From Cyanobacteria bacterium M_surface_10_m2_179 (GTDB lineage Bacteria; Cyanobacteriota; Cyanobacteriia; PCC-6307; Cyanobiaceae), in the NCBI GenBank assembly GCA_016882545.1, contig VGPW01000004.1:1-54810 (forward strand): a DNA stretch of 54,810 bases, in the 5' to 3' direction. This document shows, in pieces, positions 13,353 through 28,538 of this stretch; the stretch's first letter is position 1, and every line of letters starts with the position of its first letter. A program made the position numbers and the translations under genes. The notes beneath the pieces were generated by a model that was given only the letters and a program-made list of their open reading frames with translations, was not told where the DNA came from and searched no databases.

Positions 13353-13820
13353 ATGAGCGCCGCCTTCACCTGCTCGAAGACCTTCAGCGGCTACCCCTGT
13401 TGCCACCGCCAGTGGCGCCACAGCGGTCACTGCCGGTTTGTGCACGGCTACAGCCGCAGCTTCACCCTCTGGTTCCAGGCGCAGGAGCTGGATCCACATG
13501 GCTTCGTGGTGGATTTCTCCAGCCTCAAGCAGCTCGAGCAGCGCCTGGCCGAGCAGTTTGATCACACCTTTCTGGTGAACGCCGACGACCCCCTGCTGGA
13601 GCAATGGCAGAGCCTGCATGCCCAGGGAGCCCTCGACCTGCGGGTGATGGACAACGTGGGTATGGAAGCCAGCGCTCAGCTGGTGTGGCAGTGGGCGAAC
13701 GCACTGCTGCAACAACGCGAAGACGGCCGCAGCTGCTGCTGGAAGGTGGAAGCCCGCGAAAATGAAAAGAATGCGGCCTGCTTTGAGGCGATGCCGCCCT
13801 GGTTCAAGGCGCCGGGTTGA
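13353..13820 (+). CDS. 6-carboxytetrahydropterin synthase/PTPS-like protein
   Basis: A 155-residue T-fold protein related to QueD and 6-pyruvoyl-tetrahydropterin synthase. Recognisable parts are [20 protein letters not shown] near residues 16-35 with the catalytic-position Cys, DPHGFVVDF near 48, [11 protein letters not shown] near 68 and the substrate-binding ARENEKNA near 140. The usual zinc HGH reads HGY, a variant I believe occurs in a subgroup of the family. It probably works in queuosine or pterin synthesis. The end overlaps the convergent HMA-domain gene by 17 bases. Confidence 0.82.
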
Positions 13821-14130
13821 TGGTGCGGATCTCGCGCACATCAAACCCGGAATCGCGAATCACCTTGCGGATCTGCTGATCATCCAGCGCCGCGCCAGGT
13901 TTCAGGCTGATCGTGATGCGGTGCTGCTGAAGATCCACCGACACCGCCTGGGTGGCCGGCAAGCGCCGCAGATTGCGCTCCAAACCCTGGGCACAGAACG
14001 AGCACACCATGCCGTTCACCGTGACCTCCACGCGGGAGCCCACGGCTGCCGACCAGGCGGGCGCCACCAGTGCGGCTGCCGTCACAAACACCAGCGACAG
14101 CATTGCGCGGCGCAGATGGGCAGCGAACAT
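13804..14130 (-). CDS. MerP-like exported heavy-metal-associated (HMA) domain protein
   Basis: A 108-residue protein with a signal peptide (LSLVFVTAAALVAPAWSA) followed by a single HMA ferredoxin-like domain. The metal loop reads GMVCSFCAQG, the GMxCxxC motif that binds a soft metal ion between two cysteines; the later DSGFDV matches the conserved loop at the domain end. Location is periplasmic by the signal. This is the layout of MerP, which hands Hg(II) to MerT, though copper or another soft metal is equally possible. It is divergent from a MerT-like gene 73 bases away. An in-frame ATG at 14166 would add 12 residues. Confidence 0.82.
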   Translation of the reverse strand: MFAAHLRRAMLSLVFVTAAALVAPAWSAAVGSRVEVTVNGMVCSFCAQGLERNLRRLPATQAVSVDLQQHRITISLKPGAALDDQQIRKVIRDSGFDVREIRTINPAP

Positions 14131-14203
14131 GGCGAACGAGCGATGCACTGTCCCTCTCAATAGCATCGATTCACGCCGCATACATCCACTCTTTTCACCT
14201 CCG

Positions 14204-14581
14204 TTGTTATCAGCTCCCCGCCGCCTGGCCGCGTTCGCGCTGCTGCTGTGTTCCGGCACGCTGGTGTGCTGCGCCCTGCCGGCCCTGCTGGTGCTGCTCG
14301 GTGCCGGATCGGTGCTAGCCACAGCGTTGAGCTGGTGGCCGGGTTTAACCGTGCTCTCCGAGCAGAAAACGGTGGTATTCGGCCTGGCGGCAGCGGCATT
14401 GGTTGTGGCGGGCGTGGGCCTGTGGCAGAGCGCCCGCTTGCCGTGCCCGGTGAATCCTGAAGCGGCGCAACGCTGCCGCAGACGCCGCCGCCAGGCCCTG
14501 GGGCTCTACGCCCTCTCCTGCGCCCTGTTCGGCATCGGCAGCGTGGCTGCATTTGTGCTGCCCCTGCTGGCCTGGCGATGA
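14204..14581 (+). CDS. MerT-like three-helix metal transport protein
   Basis: A 125-residue membrane protein beginning at a TTG. TM1 holds a vicinal cysteine pair (LCSGTLVCCALPALLVLLG), TM2 follows (VVFGLAAAALVVAGVGLW), then a cytoplasmic loop with two spaced cysteines (LPCPVNPEAAQRC) and a very basic stretch RRRRR. TM3 ends in AAFVLPLL. That order of helices, CC pair and loop cysteines is the architecture of the mercuric transporter MerT. The neighbouring MerP-like and MerR genes agree. The TTG start lacks an obvious ribosome site and the reading is open upstream, so the N-terminus is uncertain. Substrate (Hg, Cu or other) is inferred only. Its stop overlaps the next start (ATGA). Confidence 0.65.
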   Translation: MLSAPRRLAAFALLLCSGTLVCCALPALLVLLGAGSVLATALSWWPGLTVLSEQKTVVFGLAAAALVVAGVGLWQSARLPCPVNPEAAQRCRRRRRQALGLYALSCALFGIGSVAAFVLPLLAWR

Positions 14582-15303
14582 GGAAAACATCCGCGCTGGT
14601 TGCGGTGGTTGGCGGCCAACTGGCTGGTCAGCTGATCGTCGCTGGCCCCAGCCTGGCGTTGCCGATGAGCTACCCAGGCAGCACCACGGTTGGCGTTGAA
14701 CTGGATCACGTCTGGTCGAGTGCCTGGTTCAGCCACGCCGTGCAACGCCAGTTGGGCGTGGGTCTCTCAGCCCAGGTGATCCCCGGGAGCGGGGCTGAGG
14801 CGGGCGGCCATGCCGGCCATGGCAGCAGCCAAGCCAATGCCACCGAAAGCTTCCTGCTGGTGGACAGCACCCACCTGCTCAAGCGCTGGAACATGGCGCG
14901 AGCCCAAAGCAATCTGTGGTTGTTCGCCGGTGTGGGCACCTACCAGACCTGGAGCAGCGAGGGGGGCAACGCCCCACGGATCAACGCCACGCGAATCGCA
15001 GCCCGCCCCGGCCTGCAATTCGACATCGAAAACACGCGCCTGCGCCTGGAGGCCAAAGCACAGCTGTTTCTCGCCGAGGGGGTGGAACGGTCGATGCTCA
15101 GCGCCACCACCGGCGTTGGGCTCACGCCACCGCGCTACGAGGGGGTTCAACCCTGGCTGGAGCTGCAGGTTCGCGCCATGCCCGGCGTGATCGATCAGGT
15201 GGAGATCATCCCCAAGCTGAGGCTGTTACACCCAAAAATCATTCTTGATGTTGGCTACAGCAGCTTAGGCACAATCACAGGAGGAATAACAACCACATTT
15301 TGA
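14578..15303 (+). CDS. Putative outer-membrane/exported beta-rich protein in the metal cassette
   Basis: A 241-residue protein with a weak signal peptide (residues 1-28, GPSLALP). The remainder is strands of alternating hydrophobicity (VGVELDHVWSSAWFSHAV, LWLFAGVGTYQTWSS, LRLEAKAQLFLAE) and ends in a C-terminal aromatic (TTTF), as in outer-membrane barrels. A short His/Gly segment (GGHAGHG) near residue 75 could bind metal. It overlaps the MerT-like gene by four bases and is surely co-translated with it. I do not recognise a named family. A role as a metal-related porin or sensor is inferred from position. Confidence 0.6.
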   Translation: MRKTSALVAVVGGQLAGQLIVAGPSLALPMSYPGSTTVGVELDHVWSSAWFSHAVQRQLGVGLSAQVIPGSGAEAGGHAGHGSSQANATESFLLVDSTHLLKRWNMARAQSNLWLFAGVGTYQTWSSEGGNAPRINATRIAARPGLQFDIENTRLRLEAKAQLFLAEGVERSMLSATTGVGLTPPRYEGVQPWLELQVRAMPGVIDQVEIIPKLRLLHPKIILDVGYSSLGTITGGITTTF

Positions 15304-15314
15304 GAAGTTTCACC

Positions 15315-15680
15315 TCAAGATGATTTCACACCACCACACTCTTTCCAAGACCCCAGCAAGTTAACGAGCTCACCGCGCATCGACTCCAGCTCACTCAGTC
15401 TGGCATCAATCGACTCAATGCGGCTTTGGATACTACTTTTCAAAGTCGAGCAATGACAGAACCCAGAGCGGCGTGCATCAAGAATTCGCCTGAGCTCAGA
15501 GAGCGGCACATCCATCGCACGCAGAGAGCGAATCAAGGCCAACTCGTCAACAACCCTGGGATGAAACAACCGGTAGCCGCCCTGCGAACGGGAGGCGGCA
15601 TCGATCAAGCCTTCATCACAGTAGAAACGGACTGTTTTCACTGACAAACCCGAAGCATCGGCTACCTGACCAATGCGCAT
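15315..15680 (-). CDS. MerR-family metal-responsive regulator
   Basis: A 121-residue regulator. The winged-helix starts MRIGQVADASGLSVKTVRFY and continues with GYRLFHPRVVDELALI; a long dimerisation helix follows. Three cysteines sit where metal-sensing MerR proteins have theirs: GFCHC before the helix and KECGG after it. This pattern fits sensors of Hg, Pb, Cd or Zn more than organic-ligand regulators. The start at 15680 gives the canonical N-terminus. It converges with the barrel gene (11 bases between) and diverges from the DUF3721 gene, with a palindrome between them that could be its operator. Confidence 0.85.
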   Translation of the reverse strand: MRIGQVADASGLSVKTVRFYCDEGLIDAASRSQGGYRLFHPRVVDELALIRSLRAMDVPLSELRRILDARRSGFCHCSTLKSSIQSRIESIDARLSELESMRGELVNLLGSWKECGGVKSS

Positions 15681-15770
15681 GGCCGGAGTATCCACGAACA
15701 GCGCTTGATTCCGAGGGATCTCCACCAACACTAGACAGCCCGGCCAGAACTCGAATCCATGACATCAAGT

Positions 15771-15784
15771 CTCCAGTACTCGAG
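15771..15784. promoter_or_regulatory. Candidate MerR operator
   Basis: CTCCAGTACTCGAG is a 14-base palindrome with one mismatched pair, situated between the MerR gene and the divergent DUF3721 gene. On the minus strand TTGGCT overlaps its edge, reminiscent of mer-type promoters where the dyad abuts a -35 box. No strong -10 was found, so this is tentative. Confidence 0.4.
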
Positions 15785-15871
15785 CCAAACCAGACATTGG
15801 CGCTAACTTGCCCCAATGGTCATCGCTACGCGTTCGTGTCCCTAGTCAGCCAACACCGGTTTGTCGCCAGC

Positions 15872-16087
15872 ATGGCAAGCAGCTTGGCAGTGGCTGCCTC
15901 CTCACTCGTTGGCGCTGCCGCCCAGGCCAACACCAGTGCTGTGCCAGCCATGTACGCCACCAAGGCAGAAGCAGAGGCAGCGGGCAAGAAGCATTTCAAC
16001 TGCACCGGAGCCCACCAGATGGGCAATCAATGGATGCCCTGCGCCACCCATGGGCAGTTAAACGAAAATGCCCAACACAATCACTGA
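15872..16087 (+). CDS. DUF3721 exported protein
   Basis: A 71-residue protein with a signal peptide (SSLAVAASSLVGAAAQA) and a mature domain YATKAEAEAAGKKHFNCTG followed by AHQMGNQWMPC. The C..H..M..M-C pattern defines DUF3721, a small family I know from cyanobacteria with no assigned role; the Cys, His and Met residues would suit metal binding. A GTG at 15836 would add 12 residues including Arg and His, giving a more typical positively charged signal sequence, and is a good alternative start. It is the first gene downstream of the presumed MerR operator. Confidence 0.75.
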   Translation: MASSLAVAASSLVGAAAQANTSAVPAMYATKAEAEAAGKKHFNCTGAHQMGNQWMPCATHGQLNENAQHNH

Positions 16088-16095
16088 AATTGAAT

Positions 16096-16497
16096 ATGGG
16101 CAACTGCGGTGAACCACCCAAGCTCATTGCCATTGGCATTGCTCCTTTGGGAATCATTTCCATTGGAGTCGTTCCCATGGGGGTCGTGAGCATTGGGGTG
16201 GTGCCCATGGGGGTGCTCAGCCTTGGCGTGGTCGGAATGGGCGTAGTGAATGCCTGCCTGGTGGGCATGGGCGTGCTCGTGGCCGGGCTTCATCCCATGG
16301 GTCTTTGGGCGCTCAGCCCAGGCGGCGGCGATCAACAGCACGGCAAGGGTGAGGCTCAGGAGCAGCTAGTTGCCTACCCCAGCAAACAGATGGCACTTGA
16401 GAAAGCACGCGCACTCGACTGCGAGGGTGTGCACGCCATGGGCGATCTCTGGATGCCCTGCTCAGAACATCTCAGCCAACCTTCCACACACCACTGA
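16096..16497 (+). CDS. Met/Gly/Val-repeat protein fused to a DUF3721 domain
   Basis: A 133-residue protein. Residues 10-72 are built of a repeated unit of the form (I/V)G(V/I)(V/A)PMG(V/L)(V/I)S(I/L), about six copies, strongly hydrophobic with regularly spaced Met and Gly. A short Gly/Gln/His-rich spacer follows, then a DUF3721 module with YPSKQMALEKARALDCEGVH and AMGDLWMPC. The start at 16096 is 9 bases after the previous DUF3721 gene, so the two are surely one operon. The repeat could form a membrane-embedded or beta-solenoid Met array suited to soft metals. No function is known to me. Confidence 0.72.
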   Translation: MGNCGEPPKLIAIGIAPLGIISIGVVPMGVVSIGVVPMGVLSLGVVGMGVVNACLVGMGVLVAGLHPMGLWALSPGGGDQQHGKGEAQEQLVAYPSKQMALEKARALDCEGVHAMGDLWMPCSEHLSQPSTHH

Positions 16498-16501
16498 TTC
16501 T

Positions 16502-16693
16502 ATGAACTCCCTGCGCCGCTTCCCCCTGGCTCTCGTCGCCATCCTCCTGGCAGCAACGTTTTCCGCCCTGGCCTGCGGCGGTGGTGGCTCAGGCAGCTAT
16601 CGCAAACCAGCACGCCCGGGCGAACCACATCACAATCCTCCCGCGCAAACCTCACAGCAAGGATCTACAGCTCCCCAGAACGCCCCTCAGTAG
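16502..16693 (+). CDS. Small putative lipoprotein
   Basis: A 63-residue product. The first 25 residues are a signal sequence (SLRRFPLALVAILLAATF) ending ALACGG, a usable lipobox with Cys25. The mature part is 38 residues, rich in Gly, Pro, Gln and His, and appears disordered. It follows the repeat-DUF3721 gene by four bases and looks like the last gene of that small operon. Function unknown. Confidence 0.6.
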   Translation: MNSLRRFPLALVAILLAATFSALACGGGGSGSYRKPARPGEPHHNPPAQTSQQGSTAPQNAPQ

Positions 16694-19088: not shown

Positions 19089-20042
19089 TTGAGCAGGCTG
19101 GTCACCATCTGGGCCGTCTTTCAAGGGCTGCTGCTTGAGGCGCTTCCATTTCTGCTGATCGGCGTGCTGATCGCAGGGCTCGCCCGCTGGATCGCCCCAG
19201 GAGGCCGCTGGCTGCAGCGTTTACCGAGCCAGCCACTGCTGGCTCCGCTCACCGGCGCTGCCCTGGGCTTTGCGCTACCGGCCTGCGAGTGCGGCAATGT
19301 GCCGGTGGCGCGGCGGTTGTTGGCCGGCGGCGCACCGCTGGGGTCGGCCTTGGGCTTCCTCTTTGCCGCACCGGTGCTCAATCCGATCGTGCTGGCGAGC
19401 ACCTGGGCCGCCTTTCCCGGTCAGCCCTGGCTGCTGGCGGCGCGGCCCCTGGCGGCTCTGCTGCTGGCCCTGGCCCTTTCTGCTCTCTTGCAGCAATGGC
19501 CTGAAGGCCAACTACTCGAGCCGGCACTGTTGGAGGAACGGCGCCTGAGCCAACCCCTGGCTGAGGTGGGGCTGCTGGAACGTCGCAGTGGCCTGGTGGG
19601 GGCCGCTCCAGCCGCACCGCCGCCGCCGCCGGAGCGGCCGAGCCTGACCACGGTGCTGGAGCACAGCAGCCGGGAATTTCTCGATCTAGCCGGCCTGCTC
19701 GTGCTGGGCAGTGCCCTGGCAGCGGTGGTGCAAACCCTGTTGCCCCGCACCTGGTTGCTGGCGGTGGGCGGGGCTCCCACCATCTCCGTGCTCAGCCTGA
19801 TGCTGATGGCGGTGGTGGTGTCGGTGTGCTCCAGCGTGGATGCCTTCCTCGCCTTGGGGTTTGCCGCTCAAATCACCCCCGGCGCCCTCTTGGCCTTTCT
19901 GGTGCTGGGGCCCGTGGTGGATCTGAAGCTGCTGGGCTTGTTTGGGGTGGTGCTGAAGCCGCGAGCCATTGCGCTCACGGCGGCTGGTGCCTTTGTGGTG
20001 GTGCTGCTGATTGGGCAATGGGTGAATCTCTGGCTGCTTTGA
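19089..20042 (+). CDS. YraQ-family (DUF318/UPF0718) membrane permease
   Basis: A 317-residue membrane protein with about eight hydrophobic segments. The hallmark CECGN (FALPACECGNVPVARRLLAG) sits near residue 70; the second half has a conserved VVSVCSSVDAFLALGF. These paired Cys motifs define the DUF318 permeases. A long Ala/Pro spacer (APAAPPPPPERPS) separates the halves. It overlaps the downstream TIGR03943 gene by 25 bases. In Bacillus, homologues of this pair (ycgR/ycgQ) are Zur controlled, which fits the adjacent znu genes. Substrate is not proven. The start codon is TTG. Confidence 0.85.
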   Translation: MSRLVTIWAVFQGLLLEALPFLLIGVLIAGLARWIAPGGRWLQRLPSQPLLAPLTGAALGFALPACECGNVPVARRLLAGGAPLGSALGFLFAAPVLNPIVLASTWAAFPGQPWLLAARPLAALLLALALSALLQQWPEGQLLEPALLEERRLSQPLAEVGLLERRSGLVGAAPAAPPPPPERPSLTTVLEHSSREFLDLAGLLVLGSALAAVVQTLLPRTWLLAVGGAPTISVLSLMLMAVVVSVCSSVDAFLALGFAAQITPGALLAFLVLGPVVDLKLLGLFGVVLKPRAIALTAAGAFVVVLLIGQWVNLWLL

Positions 20043-20689: not shown

Positions 20690-21999
20690 ACAAACCAGCC
20701 CTGCTGCTGGCCACTGGCGGACTCTTGGCCCTGTTGCAGCAGCAGCTGTTGCTGCAACGCCCACCCAGGCTGCTGGAGCTGCGCTCGAGCACCGCCAGTT
20801 CAGGGCCAGCCGCCCTCTCACTGCGCTTCAGCCGCCCGATGGATCGCGCCAGCCTGACGGCGCACAGCCAGCTGCAGCCATCCCTGCCCCATCAGTGGCT
20901 AGGCGCGAACAACCCCTTACGGCTACTGCTCGCTGCCAATCAACCAGTGACCGGGGCGATCCAGCTGCTGATCAGCGGCATGGATCAACGGGGCCTGGCA
21001 CTGCAGCCGCAGCGCTGGCGCTGGGACCCCAGACCGCGGCTGCTGGCGGTGGTAACCATGGGCAGTGGTGAGCAACTGCAACTGCTCCAACGCGATGGCC
21101 GCTGGCAACCGCTCACCCCGGAGTTCGCGCGAATCACCGCGGTGACCCCATTGGGGGATGGATCAGGCATCGCGCTGGCCAGCCGCAATGATCAAGGTGA
21201 GCGGCTGTGGCTGCTGCCGCTGCAGCAAAGCGCCCTGCAGCGCAGCGGCCAATCGGGCAGCAGCGCGGTGAAGGCAGGCCCCCTTCGGGCGCTGCTACCG
21301 GAGCCGTTGATCTTCACCCACCTGAGCAGCAACCAGCGCGGCGATCTGCTGGTGCAGTGGAGCGCCCAGGCCCTGGGCCGCTCGATCACCAGCTTCTGGC
21401 CCCGCCAGGGCAACCCTCAGCAACTGGAGCTGGAAGCATCCGGCCCGATGCAGCTGCTGCCCGCTGGTGGTGCTCTGGTGATGCCCGAGCTGGAGGGGCT
21501 GAGCCTGCGCAACCTGCCCGGACGCTCCGAGCGCCGCCAGCTGCTGCCCGGCAGCCGCGATCTGAGCAGCTTCTGCCCGGTGAGCGGGCGAGCGCTGCTG
21601 GTGCGGCATTGGCCTGATTTCCGGCGCTCTCTAGAACTGGTGGAACCCGGTCAGCCGCCACGCCAGCTGTGGCTGGGCGGCGATGCGGTGCTGAGCACGG
21701 CCTGCGATCGCGGCGGTGAACGGGTGTGGCTGCTGGTGAGCCATTGGCGCGATGCCCAGCGCAGCCGGCTGCTGGAAATCAACCGCCAGGGGCAGATCGT
21801 GCGGACACGGGGTCTCACGGGGTGGCAGGTGGTACCCGGCGTGCCGATGGCCTACGACCCCACCCGTCAGCAGTTGCTGCTCACCCTGCGGCAACAGGGG
21901 CGCCCTGACGCGCAACCGGTGCTGATCGCGGCGCGGGATTTCGCTCTACAGCCGCTGCAGAAACGAGTGAGCCAGGCCCTCTGGCTACCGCCGGGCTAG
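20686..21999 (+). CDS. Exported SbsA-Ig/beta-propeller-like protein of unknown function
   Basis: A 437-residue protein. A hydrophobic N-terminal segment (LLLATGGLLALLQQQLLLQ) anchors or exports it. Near residues 38-110 an Ig-like fold of the SbsA kind is suggested by LSLRFSRPMDRASL. The rest is a run of strand-turn repeats (LQLLQRDGRWQPLTPEFARI, VWLLVSHWRDAQRS) that look like a beta-propeller. It is coupled by ATGA to the TIGR03943 gene and convergent with znuB (15-base overlap). Its place in a zinc-linked operon suggests an envelope role, but no function can be assigned. Confidence 0.65.
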   Translation: MNKPALLLATGGLLALLQQQLLLQRPPRLLELRSSTASSGPAALSLRFSRPMDRASLTAHSQLQPSLPHQWLGANNPLRLLLAANQPVTGAIQLLISGMDQRGLALQPQRWRWDPRPRLLAVVTMGSGEQLQLLQRDGRWQPLTPEFARITAVTPLGDGSGIALASRNDQGERLWLLPLQQSALQRSGQSGSSAVKAGPLRALLPEPLIFTHLSSNQRGDLLVQWSAQALGRSITSFWPRQGNPQQLELEASGPMQLLPAGGALVMPELEGLSLRNLPGRSERRQLLPGSRDLSSFCPVSGRALLVRHWPDFRRSLELVEPGQPPRQLWLGGDAVLSTACDRGGERVWLLVSHWRDAQRSRLLEINRQGQIVRTRGLTGWQVVPGVPMAYDPTRQQLLLTLRQQGRPDAQPVLIAARDFALQPLQKRVSQALWLPPG

Positions 22000-22776
22000 C
22001 TGCAGCGGCAACAGCAGCAGGCACAGCACCCCAATCAGTGGGCCCGGCGGCAGGTTGATCCAGGGCTGGATCGCCAGCAAAAGGCCACCCCCGCTCAGAA
22101 GCATGCCAAGCAAGGCTGATCGCCACAGGGCCTGGCGCAGGCTCGTGGCACCGGGCAGCGCCAGCAAGGCCGGTGCGCCCATCAAGCCGATCACCAGCAC
22201 CACGCCAACGGCCGTCATCGCACTCACCACGGTGAAGGCAGTCACCAGGGTGAGCAGCAGCCGCAGGCGCCGCACCGGCAACCCGGCACTGGTGGCACCA
22301 AGGGGGTCGACCCCCAGATACACGTAGTGGTGATAGCGCCAGAGCAGCAGCAGCAGCATGGCCAGCAGCGCCAACAGGCTGCGCACCAGATCAGCGGGTG
22401 CCGCAGCCAGCAGATCACCAAACAGCACGGCCTCCAGATTCACGCGGATGCCCAGCAGGGGAATCAGCAGCACCCCCAGCCCTAAAAAGCCCGCCAGAAC
22501 AGTGTTGAGCACGGCTTCATCACCCGGTTGTCCTGGGCGTGAGGCGCCGCTAAAACGCTCCGCCAGCAGCGCACCCGCCAGGCCACTGATCGCACCCCCC
22601 ACCCCTGGGTCGATGCGAAGCGCCACAGCCAGGGCCAGCCCGGGAAGCACGGCGTGCGACACCAGGTTCACCAGAAACAAGCGCCGCTGCACCAGCAGCA
22701 CGGTGCCCGTGAGCGGGCAGAGCCCACCCACGACCAACGCCACCGCGAGCGGCAGCAGCCACCACACACGCTCCAT
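21985..22776 (-). CDS. znuB: Zinc ABC transporter permease ZnuB
   Basis: A 263-residue ABC-3 family permease with eight or nine membrane helices. Typical features are the N-terminal GLCPLTGTVLLVQRRLFLVN and SHAVLPGLALA, and the later TAVGVVLVIGLMGAPALLAL. It forms the membrane channel for zinc (or manganese) import with ZnuC and ZnuA. Unlike the usual znuC-znuB operon, the zur gene lies between the two on the other strand. Only 32 bases separate znuB from the zur start, with no AT-rich operator in them. Expression would need either a promoter inside zur or read-through from znuC. Confidence 0.92.
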   Translation of the reverse strand: MERVWWLLPLAVALVVGGLCPLTGTVLLVQRRLFLVNLVSHAVLPGLALAVALRIDPGVGGAISGLAGALLAERFSGASRPGQPGDEAVLNTVLAGFLGLGVLLIPLLGIRVNLEAVLFGDLLAAAPADLVRSLLALLAMLLLLLWRYHHYVYLGVDPLGATSAGLPVRRLRLLLTLVTAFTVVSAMTAVGVVLVIGLMGAPALLALPGATSLRQALWRSALLGMLLSGGGLLLAIQPWINLPPGPLIGVLCLLLLPLQLARR

Positions 22777-22808
22777 AGGATCAGGGTCCCCGCCCCGCTG
22801 GTTCGGCC

Positions 22809-23210
22809 ATGCCCTCCCAGGTTGCCGCCTCAGGCGATCGCCAGCTGCTGCTGCTGGAGCAACTGAAGCTGGCCGATCGGGAACTCTCGGGTCAAGACCT
22901 GCACGCCCTGCTGCGCCAGAGCCCCCAGGCCATGGGACTGGCCACGGTGTACCGGCACCTGCGCCAGCTGCAGCAGCGGGGCTTGATCCGCTGCCGCCAT
23001 CTCCCCAGTGGCGAGGCCCTGTTCACGCCGGTGGAGCGCGATGAACACCACCTCACCTGCGTGGATTGCGGCACCACCTTGGTGCTGGAGCATTGCCCGA
23101 TGCACAACGTGCAGTTGCACGGCGATCAGGCGGAGGGGTTTCGGCTGCTGTTTCACACCCTGGAATTCTTCGGGCTGTGCCGCAACTGCCAGAACCGCCA
23201 GAACGCCTAA
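22809..23210 (+). CDS. zur: Zinc uptake regulator, Fur family
   Basis: A 133-residue Fur-type repressor. The winged helix includes LSGQDLHALLRQSPQAMGLA and TVYRHLRQLQQRGLIR. Its metal sites are visible: HHLTCVDCG, CPMHNVQLHG and the terminal CRNCQNRQNA, two CxxC pairs for structural zinc plus regulatory His/Cys residues. Location between the znu genes makes Zur the best identity. It would repress zinc import when zinc is plentiful. Its 3' end overlaps znuC by four bases, and the whole gene lies antisense between znuC and znuB. Confidence 0.9.
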   Translation: MPSQVAASGDRQLLLLEQLKLADRELSGQDLHALLRQSPQAMGLATVYRHLRQLQQRGLIRCRHLPSGEALFTPVERDEHHLTCVDCGTTLVLEHCPMHNVQLHGDQAEGFRLLFHTLEFFGLCRNCQNRQNA

Positions 23211-23923
23211 CCGCAGCAGTGGTTGCCCACCCGCAGATCGCCCAGGGCCTGGCGAACCTGTTGGGGCGTGCCGTCGGCCAGGAGCTGGCGATCGAGCACG
23301 AGCACCCGGTCGTAGGCGTCGAGGTCGCGACCCCAGTCGTGACTGCTCACCAGCAGGGTGAGCCCGGCATCACTGAGCTGACGCATCACCCGCAGCAACT
23401 CCGTGCGCGAGGGCGGATCGATCGCTGCGCAGGGTTCATCCAGCAGCAGCATTCGCGCCGGTTGCACCAGGGTGCGCGCCAGCAGGGCCCTCTGCTGCTG
23501 ACCGCCGGAGAGCTGATCAAGGCGACGCCCAGCGAGCCCCATCAATCCAACCCGCTGCAGCGCCGCCTCCACATCGCAGCAACCCGGCCGCTGACCGGCC
23601 AAGCGTCCAAGGGCCACCAATGCCCGCACCGTGATCGGAAAACCCCAGGCAATCTCTCCGCGCTGGGGCATCAGGGCGAGCTGCTGACGCGCCAGGGCGG
23701 GAGTGAGGGAAAGGCCCTCCCAAGTGATGGAACCAGCTGCAGGGCTCAGTTGCCCCTCCAAGGTCTGCAGCAAGGTGCTCTTGCCAGCCCCATTGGGCCC
23801 CACGAGAGCGGTGAGGGCGCCGGGCTGGAGCCTGAACGAGAGCTGATCGAGCACCAGCTCGGGCCCGCGGCGCACACACAGCTGATCAACGCTGAGCACC
23901 GCTTCTGGCCTCACTCCATCCAC
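23207..23923 (-). CDS. znuC: Zinc ABC transporter ATP-binding protein ZnuC
   Basis: A 238-residue ABC ATPase. Walker A is GPNGAGKST near residue 42, signature LSGGQQQRALLARTL near 138, Walker B LLLDEPCAAID near 160 and the switch His in SSHDW. It powers zinc import through ZnuB. The intergenic region to the divergent znuA (135 bases) holds a Zur-like box and probably both promoters. Downstream, its stop overlaps the end of zur, not znuB. Confidence 0.92.
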   Translation of the reverse strand: MDGVRPEAVLSVDQLCVRRGPELVLDQLSFRLQPGALTALVGPNGAGKSTLLQTLEGQLSPAAGSITWEGLSLTPALARQQLALMPQRGEIAWGFPITVRALVALGRLAGQRPGCCDVEAALQRVGLMGLAGRRLDQLSGGQQQRALLARTLVQPARMLLLDEPCAAIDPPSRTELLRVMRQLSDAGLTLLVSSHDWGRDLDAYDRVLVLDRQLLADGTPQQVRQALGDLRVGNHCCG

Positions 23924-24019
23924 GTTACGGAGCGAGCAAGCCTTGATCGATCCAACGCGTCCATCAACCTGGCAGCACCTTCCTCATGGGGGCACCACGC
24001 CAGAACAACCCTGCGCTTC

Positions 24020-24034
24020 TGAGAACCATTATCG
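24020..24034. promoter_or_regulatory. Candidate Zur box upstream of znuA
   Basis: TGAGAACCATTATCG matches the 7-1-7 Fur-type consensus TGATAAT-N-ATTATCA at 12 of 14 arm positions; the right arm ATTATC is perfect. It lies 24 bases before the znuA start and 96 bases from the divergent znuC start, where it could repress both. Confidence 0.6.
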
Positions 24035-24058
24035 TTGTCTTTGGAGCTGGGCTTAAGG

Positions 24059-25201
24059 ATGCGGCGAACCGCAGCTGTATTGATGGCACCACTCGCCCTG
24101 GCGGCGCTTCAGGCCTGCAGCCCAGGCTCCCAGATAGACGTGATCGCTGCCGATGGCGCGCTGTGTGACATCACCCAGCGTCTCGCCGCAGGCCGCCTGA
24201 AGGTGGTCTGCCTGCTGGGCCCAAGCGACGACCCCCATCAGCTGCAGCTCACGCCCGCGCAAACCCGCCAGATCAACCAGGCCAAGCTGCTGCTGATCAA
24301 CGGCTACGGACTCACCCCTGCGCTCGAGAAGCTCAGTGAGGCGGTGAAGGTGGCGGAGATTGCGGTTCCGAACAGCCCCGATCTCAACGATGGCGTTCAG
24401 AGCGACGAACACAGCCACACCGAACATGAACACGAGCACGCCCACGAGGGAGACGGCGAAGCGGCCCACCCGCATGGCGACCAGGATCCCCACGTGTGGC
24501 ACGACCCACGCCAAGCCGCAGCGATGGTGCAAGTGGTGAGCAAGAAGCTCGAGCAGCTCGATCCGCAGGCCGCTCCACAGATTCAGGCGCGATCCAAGAC
24601 GATGCAACAAAGCCTGAACGCCCTCGATCGCTGGAACCGCGAGCAATTCAGCTCGATCCCCTCGCCGCGCGTTCTCGCCAGCGGCCACCGGGCCTTCGCA
24701 AGCCTCGCCAGGGCCTATCAACTCAAGGAACTGCCGGTGATTGATGCCACCAGCACGAGCGACGCGCTCCGGCCTCAGGCCCTCGCCAACGTGGTGGCAG
24801 CGCTGCGCGAACAGGGCGTGCGCAGCCTGTTCGCCGAGCAAACGCCGGCCAGCAAGGCACTGCTGCGGATCAGCAGCCTCAGCGGTGTGCCGCTCGCCAG
24901 CCAACCCCTGCGGGCCGACTCCGCCGCAGACAACCTGATGGCGACCCTCACCAGCAACACCTGCCTGATCGTGAACGCCCTTGGAGGGAGCTGCAACCAA
25001 GCCGCCGCAACGAACTCGTGGCGAACTGGAACGCCATCCGCTGAGCAAGCCGGACCAGCAGCCATAGCGAAAAGGACATCAGAGGGTACAGATACCGCCC
25101 CCGATGGAGCCGTGACACGTGGAACACCTACGATGCGATTGATTCTCAACAGCAGCGCATCGCCGCACCATGGCTCAGCAGATCGGCTGTCGCAGCGATG
25201 A
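24059..25201 (+). CDS. znuA: Zinc ABC transporter substrate-binding lipoprotein ZnuA, probable 3' frameshift
   Basis: A zinc-binding protein of the cluster 9 family. Lipobox ALQAC with Cys20. Zinc ligands: DPHQLQLTP (His near 60), a His-rich loop (HSHTEHEHEHAHEGDG) near residues 118-135, then DPHVWHDPRQA and SGHRAF, with the Asp/Glu ligand region LFAEQTPAS. The frame stays open to 25201, giving 380 residues, but the last 65 or so residues look unnatural. One frame over, the bases end NELVANWNAIR then TGA at 25042-25044, a typical family C-terminus. A one-base loss near 25000 would explain this. The ATG at 24059 fits the lipoprotein signal and the Zur box upstream. Confidence 0.88.
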   Translation: MRRTAAVLMAPLALAALQACSPGSQIDVIAADGALCDITQRLAAGRLKVVCLLGPSDDPHQLQLTPAQTRQINQAKLLLINGYGLTPALEKLSEAVKVAEIAVPNSPDLNDGVQSDEHSHTEHEHEHAHEGDGEAAHPHGDQDPHVWHDPRQAAAMVQVVSKKLEQLDPQAAPQIQARSKTMQQSLNALDRWNREQFSSIPSPRVLASGHRAFASLARAYQLKELPVIDATSTSDALRPQALANVVAALREQGVRSLFAEQTPASKALLRISSLSGVPLASQPLRADSAADNLMATLTSNTCLIVNALGGSCNQAAATNSWRTGTPSAEQAGPAAIAKRTSEGTDTAPDGAVTRGTPTMRLILNSSASPHHGSADRLSQR

Positions 25202-27765: not shown

Positions 27766-27771
27766 AGCGAT

Positions 27772-27920
27772 ACTGCAGATGGCGGTTTCCCGGTCTCACC
27801 CCGGGAAGGCAACGAGGAAAGTCCGGTGCGGTGCATCCCGCGCTCACTCCGGCACTGTCCCGCAGCTGTGATGAGGCAGGCCCCAAACCCGCTTCTCAGT
27901 CAGAACGCTCGCCGCAGTTA
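27772..27920 (+). ncRNA. Cobalamin riboswitch upstream of hupE
   Basis: The region shows the conserved core of AdoCbl-type riboswitches: GAGGAAAGTCCGGTGC, then CACTGTCCCGCAGCTGTGATG, and the B12-box-like GTCAGAACGCTCGCC at its end. Terminal pairing of CTGC with GCAG closes the element. It ends about 45 bases before the hupE ATG, where cobalamin binding would block expression. GAGGAAAGTCCGG also resembles RNase P RNA, but the rest does not. Confidence 0.8.
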
Positions 27921-27962
27921 CCCCACCCCTCTCTTCAGCACCGGCGCGGACCGGCACTGCCC

Positions 27963-28538
27963 ATGACAACCAAGCTTTCCCGTTCCCTGCTGCTGAGCAG
28001 CGCCGCTGGCCTGGGCCTGAGCCTGCTCTCCGCCCTTCCGGCTAGCGCCCATGGCAGCGCCGATGCCGGGGTGGTGGGCGGAGCCCTCCATCCACTGCTG
28101 GGTGTCGATCACCTGCTGCTGCTGCTGGGCGTGGGCCTGACGGCAGCCCGCTTCGGCCCGATGCTGCTGGGCTTTGCCCTCGGTGGCGCCGTGCTGGGCA
28201 GCGTGGTGGGCAGCTTTGGCGGCCATCTCCCCGCAGCCGAGCTGCTTGCAGCACTGGGCGTGAGCGCCGTGGGTGCCGCCCTGCTGCTCAGCGACAGGCT
28301 GCAGCGTCCGCTGCCGGTGATCGGCTCGGTGCTGGCCGCCGCGGTCGCCATCCACGCCATGCTCCACGGCCAGGAATCGGCCGGAACCGCCGGCTGGTGG
28401 ATGGGGGCGCTGCTCGCCTCCGCCGCTGCGGTGGCGGCGAGCTTTGCGGCTGGACGCCGCCTCAGCCAGCAGCAGGCCCAGCTACTTGCAGGAGCCCTGG
28501 CGCTGCTGGGCGGCGTGCTGGCGATCGCACCGCTGTAA
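27963..28538 (+). CDS. HupE/UreJ-family metal permease, probably cobalt
   Basis: A 191-residue membrane protein. Signal peptide (LLLSSAAGLGLSLLSALPAS, then AHG) exposes a His at the mature start; the family motif HPLLGVDHLLLLLGVG is near residue 40, and six helices follow. HupE/UreJ proteins transport nickel or cobalt. Control by a cobalamin riboswitch indicates cobalt uptake for B12 synthesis, as predicted previously for cyanobacterial hupE genes. A second conserved His is in IHAMLHGQE. Confidence 0.9.
   Translation: MTTKLSRSLLLSSAAGLGLSLLSALPASAHGSADAGVVGGALHPLLGVDHLLLLLGVGLTAARFGPMLLGFALGGAVLGSVVGSFGGHLPAAELLAALGVSAVGAALLLSDRLQRPLPVIGSVLAAAVAIHAMLHGQESAGTAGWWMGALLASAAAVAASFAAGRRLSQQQAQLLAGALALLGGVLAIAPL

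Follow-up and report, generated by a model that had tools for sequence, protein, structure and literature searches.

A candidate copper relay across the cell envelope, made up of an outer-membrane barrel, an exported HMA protein and a MerT-like membrane protein, inserted beside a resident MerR-DUF3721 module in a cyanobacterium

The window, a stretch of 54,810 nucleotides from Cyanobacteria bacterium M_surface_10_m2_179 (contig VGPW01000004.1), carries three neighbouring genes, referred to here as the trio, that encode an exported HMA protein, a MerT-like three-helix membrane protein and an outer-membrane β-barrel. With moderate confidence, we read the trio as an envelope relay for a metal that is likely to be copper, acquired beside a MerR-DUF3721 module that probably responds to copper as well, with import somewhat likelier than export. 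The trio operon offers one candidate component per compartment, is found chiefly in betaproteobacteria, among them streamlined lineages from fresh and marine waters, and separates the MerT fold from mercury reduction.

The source assembly is cyanobacterial (1.92 Mb in 127 contigs, 86% complete). A sequence-only reading of the window had described seven open reading frames (ORFs) as a compact mercury-like cassette, and all seven are present. The gene for the exported, MerP/CopZ-like HMA protein (13804–14181, reverse strand) encodes a GMVCSFC motif and matches PF00403 (2.8e-7). It is followed on the forward strand by the MerT-like gene (14204–14581), which has an uncertain TTG start and whose product contains a CC pair and a loop C-P...C motif, and by the barrel gene (14578–15303), whose modelled product has a signal peptide, 12–13 strands and a His/Gly loop. 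The resident module consists of a MerR-family regulator (15315–15683, reverse strand; PF13411, 2e-14) and, on the forward strand, the exported DUF3721 protein a (15797–16087; PF12518, 5.6e-14; C/H/M motif; an ATG at 15872 is a possible start), DUF3721 protein b (16096–16497; GLTT repeats; PF01744, 5.5e-14, and PF12518, 8.4e-14) and a small Gly/Pro-rich protein (16502–16693). The last of these is exported, but its earlier description as a lipoprotein is doubtful, the ALA-C junction of its weak lipobox not being a clean one; it is also found in L011, L012, L113 and L117 (L numbers denote the loci used for comparison). The HMA, MerR and both DUF3721 domains score above their Pfam cutoffs (52.0 and 51.5 bits vs a cutoff of 27 for PF12518), and the MerT-like and barrel proteins of the window match no Pfam family above cutoff.

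All seven genes recur in the same order in two further cyanobacterial MAGs (L011 and L012), so the arrangement is not due to chance; most of the larger proteins are 77–84% identical to those of the window, with 59–68% for DUF3721a and 44–68% for the small ORF. The same-genus locus L114 reads RND pump, fusion protein, hisIE, queD, MerR, DUF3721a, DUF3721b, peptidase and permease, which is the synteny of the window minus the trio, and its queD and merR ORFs overlap, whereas they lie 1.5 kb apart in the window. The trio is therefore a 1.5-kb insertion between queD and merR. DUF3721 is present in 132 of the 151 same-family genomes, frequently in tandem pairs spaced by about 0.5 kb, and MerR homologues (E ≤ 1e-8) in 50 of them. 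The empty site in L114 and the separate distributions of the two modules rule out the seven genes as one co-conserved cassette, which is how they had been grouped; instead, MerR and DUF3721 are resident separately and the trio was inserted beside them. That all seven nevertheless form one MerR-controlled metal cassette within the window clade is improbable: the window, L011 and L012 do hold the complete set in identical order and both modules probably handle the same metal, but DUF3721 and MerR are widespread without the trio, the trio occurs elsewhere without DUF3721 or MerR, and no operator was found near the HMA and MerT-like start sites.

Scanned with a three-sequence alignment of the MerT-like protein, bacterial and archaeal genomes yielded 371 relatives; the 80 best come mostly from Betaproteobacteria, joined by Alpha- and Gammaproteobacteria and Dadabacteria. 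These 80, the same-family loci L009 and L010 and the window make up a set of 83 loci, in which rarer forms of the trio may be missing because the ranking went by similarity to the query. Of the 83, 76 combine genes for the barrel, the HMA protein and the MerT-like protein, usually in the order barrel-HMA-MerT on one strand. The co-occurrence across genomes that the sequence-only reading had proposed as a check is thus borne out for the three trio genes, and fails for the trio with MerR and DUF3721. Among cyanobacteria, the MerT-like protein is found in 3/151 same-family genomes and 3/386 genomes across the phylum (one marginal at 1.5e-4), and the barrel in 2/151 and 1/386 respectively. In a midpoint-rooted concatenated tree, the five cyanobacterial copies are monophyletic (bootstrap 100), with L010, which has kept the proteobacterial gene order, as sister to the other four; L009 contains HMA-MerT only and the HMA gene is inverted in the window clade. 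The best explanation is that this cyanobacterial clade acquired the trio from outside and lost the original gene order as well as the leader described below.

The AlphaFold2 model of the MerT-like protein (pLDDT 79) consists of long helices at residues 4–31, 55–77 and 85–124, with a vicinal CC pair (C22 and C23) in the first helix and C81 and C91 at or near the loop between helices 2 and 3; all four cysteines are invariant among 45 relatives. Comparison of its profile with MerT by hhalign gives a probability of 83%, an E-value of 9.2e-6 and a score of 37.0, against a maximum of 21.9 in 200 column shuffles (0/200 reach 37.0) and 20.6 for the reversed alignment; the MerT side comprises three sequences, two taken from genomes and that of Tn21 MerT. 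Model, cysteines and homology agree with the initial view that the 14204 product is MerT-like. PRK13751, in a single-sequence model scan that is weaker than the profile comparison, matches 5/26 relatives, and PF02411 leaves the window protein unmatched and hits 1/26 relatives at E 0.01. The protein is a distant MerT homologue that falls outside PF02411 at the curated cutoff. Searching the PDB for similar folds returned no informative match, as is usual for short helical bundles.

The resemblance to MerT and MerP of mer operons (PF02411, TIGR02052) extends to the arrangement of the genes: in both, an exported HMA protein adjoins a three-helix inner-membrane protein with a vicinal CC pair in TM1 and a cysteine pair in the loop, although the loop spacing is C-x9-C in the window protein and C-x5-C in Tn21 MerT. 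In contrast to mer operons, the trio lacks MerA, includes an outer-membrane barrel and has copper-type neighbours. Mercury uptake of the MerT/MerP type, with a reductase elsewhere or none at all, is a very improbable function for the trio; it would account for the MerT homology and the MerP-like HMA protein, but the neighbours and leaders are of copper type, PF02411 does not match the window protein, and no MerA passes its cutoff in the genomes searched. The lack of a mercuric reductase, which had been noted for the cassette, extends to its own genome (86% complete) and to 38 trio genomes, where none scores over cutoff (0/38; at most 31 candidates per genome were scored and several genomes are incomplete MAGs), and this absence disfavours a mercury system. 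Classical MerT is found in 4/38 trio genomes; 2/3 regions around these genes contain MerT and MerP with no MerA motif, one region ending at a contig end.

The HMA profile picks up copper ATPase domains and CopZ chains, with weaker matches to MerP; it fits copper and mercury proteins alike, which counts against a firm copper reading. The pairing of MerT with HMA is already recognised in an NCBIfam family, NF045683 (MerT/CopZ fusion-like heavy metal transport selenoprotein), where a MerT-like unit is likewise joined to a CopZ-like HMA unit and which matches 8/26 of the MerT-like relatives (best 5.7e-5). Unlike in NF045683, the two units are separate proteins here and are accompanied by the barrel, with no sign of selenocysteine.

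The barrel model, built from 43 sequences (pLDDT 87.3), contains a signal peptide and 12–13 strands. KdgM porins are its top Foldseek matches (E 2e-4), and a second structural aligner returns the BrkA translocator (Z 17.5), the oligogalacturonate porins VhGalP (Z 15.7) and KdgM (Z 15.4), and the copper protein PcoB (7pge; Z 12.4), which at 17% has the highest identity among the matches listed. As barrel folds resemble one another, such matches indicate location and shape and are uninformative on substrate. The trio barrel is similar to PcoB/CopB (PF05275) in being a small outer-membrane barrel in a copper setting with a fold match to PcoB, but differs in that it has no Pfam match among 30 relatives and that the profile comparison is negative (hhalign E 0.13 vs one CopB); membership of the CopB/PcoB family is thus unsupported by sequence.

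The neighbourhoods of the trio point to copper, and the mercury-like frame first given to these genes is probably wrong. Genes near the trio encode CusF (3.5e-21), a cupredoxin (1e-7), a DUF411 protein (3.6e-26) and a CsoR-type repressor (2.4e-24), the last of which (PF02583) lies directly upstream of the barrel in three loci (L016:1562–1840, L048 and L066). In L009 and L010, cyanobacteria outside the window clade, reading by eye revealed no obvious copper genes beside the trio. At L029:1711–4382, a gene for a P-type ATPase with an HMA domain and then a MerR gene stand just upstream of leader and trio.

The leader is a short ORF before the barrel that has a CxxC (or CxxxC) motif, a PP among its ten C-terminal residues and a Cys/His/Met content of 9% or more. 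Among the 68 loci with enough upstream sequence, cyanobacterial loci left out, 38 have such a CxxC...PP leader before the barrel and 30 are without one. The leader definition fits 39/130 ORFs upstream of the barrel vs 23/3441 elsewhere, with a Fisher p of 5e-43 that is overstated because the definition was drawn up with the upstream ORFs already in view and the loci are non-independent. The leader tails are nevertheless found repeatedly in beta- and gammaproteobacteria as well as in Dadabacteria. In this respect, many non-cyanobacterial trios resemble operons headed by the upstream ORFs (uORFs) CruR and CutF (DUF2946; PMC9426467, PMC9973294), whereas no such leader is seen in the cyanobacterial version. 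Both are copper-sensing; the studied CruR-led operon serves copper acquisition (PMC9426467), and the CutF-led operon answers copper excess (PMC9973294). When six leaders (among ten neighbour proteins scanned) were compared with DUF2946, two weak matches were obtained (0.012 and 0.0053), both below cutoff. The main texts of PMC9426467 and PMC9973294 make no mention of MerT, HMA or the trio barrel as downstream genes; a survey based on domains could overlook the barrel, for which no Pfam family exists.

In the mechanism that we propose, the outer-membrane barrel would let the metal through or hand it on, the exported HMA protein would act as its periplasmic carrier, and the MerT-like protein would move it across the inner membrane via the TM1 cysteine pair and the loop cysteines. 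The metal would most likely be copper, probably Cu(I), and in the window clade the inserted trio would have landed beside the resident, probably copper-responsive MerR-DUF3721 module. MerT imports mercury from MerP, which favours import for the trio. Leaders of the CruR type and of the CutF type work in opposite senses, so that import is only slightly favoured; export would likewise be compatible with the CsoR-type repressor and the detoxification genes close by.

The trio might instead serve copper detoxification or export, with the HMA protein collecting periplasmic or cytosolic copper and the barrel releasing it outward, the role proposed for PcoB/CopB-type barrels. We regard this as rather unlikely: import is what the known MerT proteins carry out, operons led by CruR-type leaders serve copper acquisition and the barrel shows no profile similarity to CopB, even though CusF, DUF411, the cupredoxin and the L029 P-type ATPase with its HMA domain are neighbours that speak for export, PcoB (7pge) is among the fold matches (Z 12.4, 17%), and CopB occurs in only 1/17 trio genomes, so that the barrel could replace it. 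Returning to the copper relay with import favoured, a bolder form of it is put forward tentatively: the trio would be an undescribed importer devoted to copper, widespread among Gram-negative bacteria and governed by copper-sensing leader peptides, and its barrel would represent a new outer-membrane family; the cyanobacterial copy would have been acquired from outside and placed next to a resident copper regulator.

The copper response of the resident MerR-DUF3721 module is likewise a probable one, with sequence features on both sides. The window MerR carries a C-x-C where the dimerisation helix begins and a single C-terminal Cys, and is without the second C-terminal loop Cys of CueR and ZntR; the Hg(II)-sensor pattern, consisting of one dimerisation-helix Cys and two C-terminal loop Cys, is not found in it. 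Its best NCBIfam matches are CadR and CueR, at half their cutoffs, and it has a Cys where CueR has Ser, which brings it nearer to divalent-metal sensors and counts against the copper reading. A MerR with about 50% identity to that of the window occurs in four same-genus genomes, in a neighbourhood that holds genes for DUF411, multicopper oxidase, DUF305 and DUF3721 proteins, DUF305 being the domain of the Synechocystis copper-resistance protein CopM (PMC4335983).

Among the loci fetched, the 18-mer TACTGGAGNCTTGATGTC (15761–15778, reverse strand), located between merR and DUF3721a, is shared by the window, L011 and L012 alone. It bears a weak resemblance to one arm of a palindrome that precedes merR in related copper clusters and is a possible, if weak, operator half-site; the full palindrome has no good match in the window. 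A dyad search at the HMA/MerT-like start sites (14080–14240) and a consensus search of the region for a sigma-70 promoter found none. The adjacent MerR may regulate the trio.

In line with the sequence-only reading, which knew of no description of a joint function for the seven genes, no paper describing the trio was found in a literature search that had most subscription journals beyond its reach; the copper reviews searched leave MerT unmentioned, and neither the barrel nor the link to copper leaders was found described in the literature searched. The three-gene set is apparently undescribed. No paper on DUF3721 was found in the literature searched either.

In DUF3721b (16096–16497), the GLTT repeats carry a Met about every ten residues and precede the C-terminal C/H/M motif, and the DUF3721a/b pair is widespread in picocyanobacteria. 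In L011 and L012, a 200-residue ORF with GGxGxDxL-type repeats (L011:8612–9214), which is absent from the window, is flanked on both sides by copies of the small exported protein. An ArsP_1-type permease (19089–20042; PF03773, 4.5e-54) is encoded close downstream in the window and also adjoins the empty site in L114. Further along, the window holds a Znu-type ABC transporter set recognised by eye (21985–25201; membrane subunit, ATPase and binding protein) with a Fur-family gene (22809–23210), and a cobalamin riboswitch (27766–27930) at the start of a HupE/UreJ-like gene (27831–28538), which suggests cobalt or nickel uptake.
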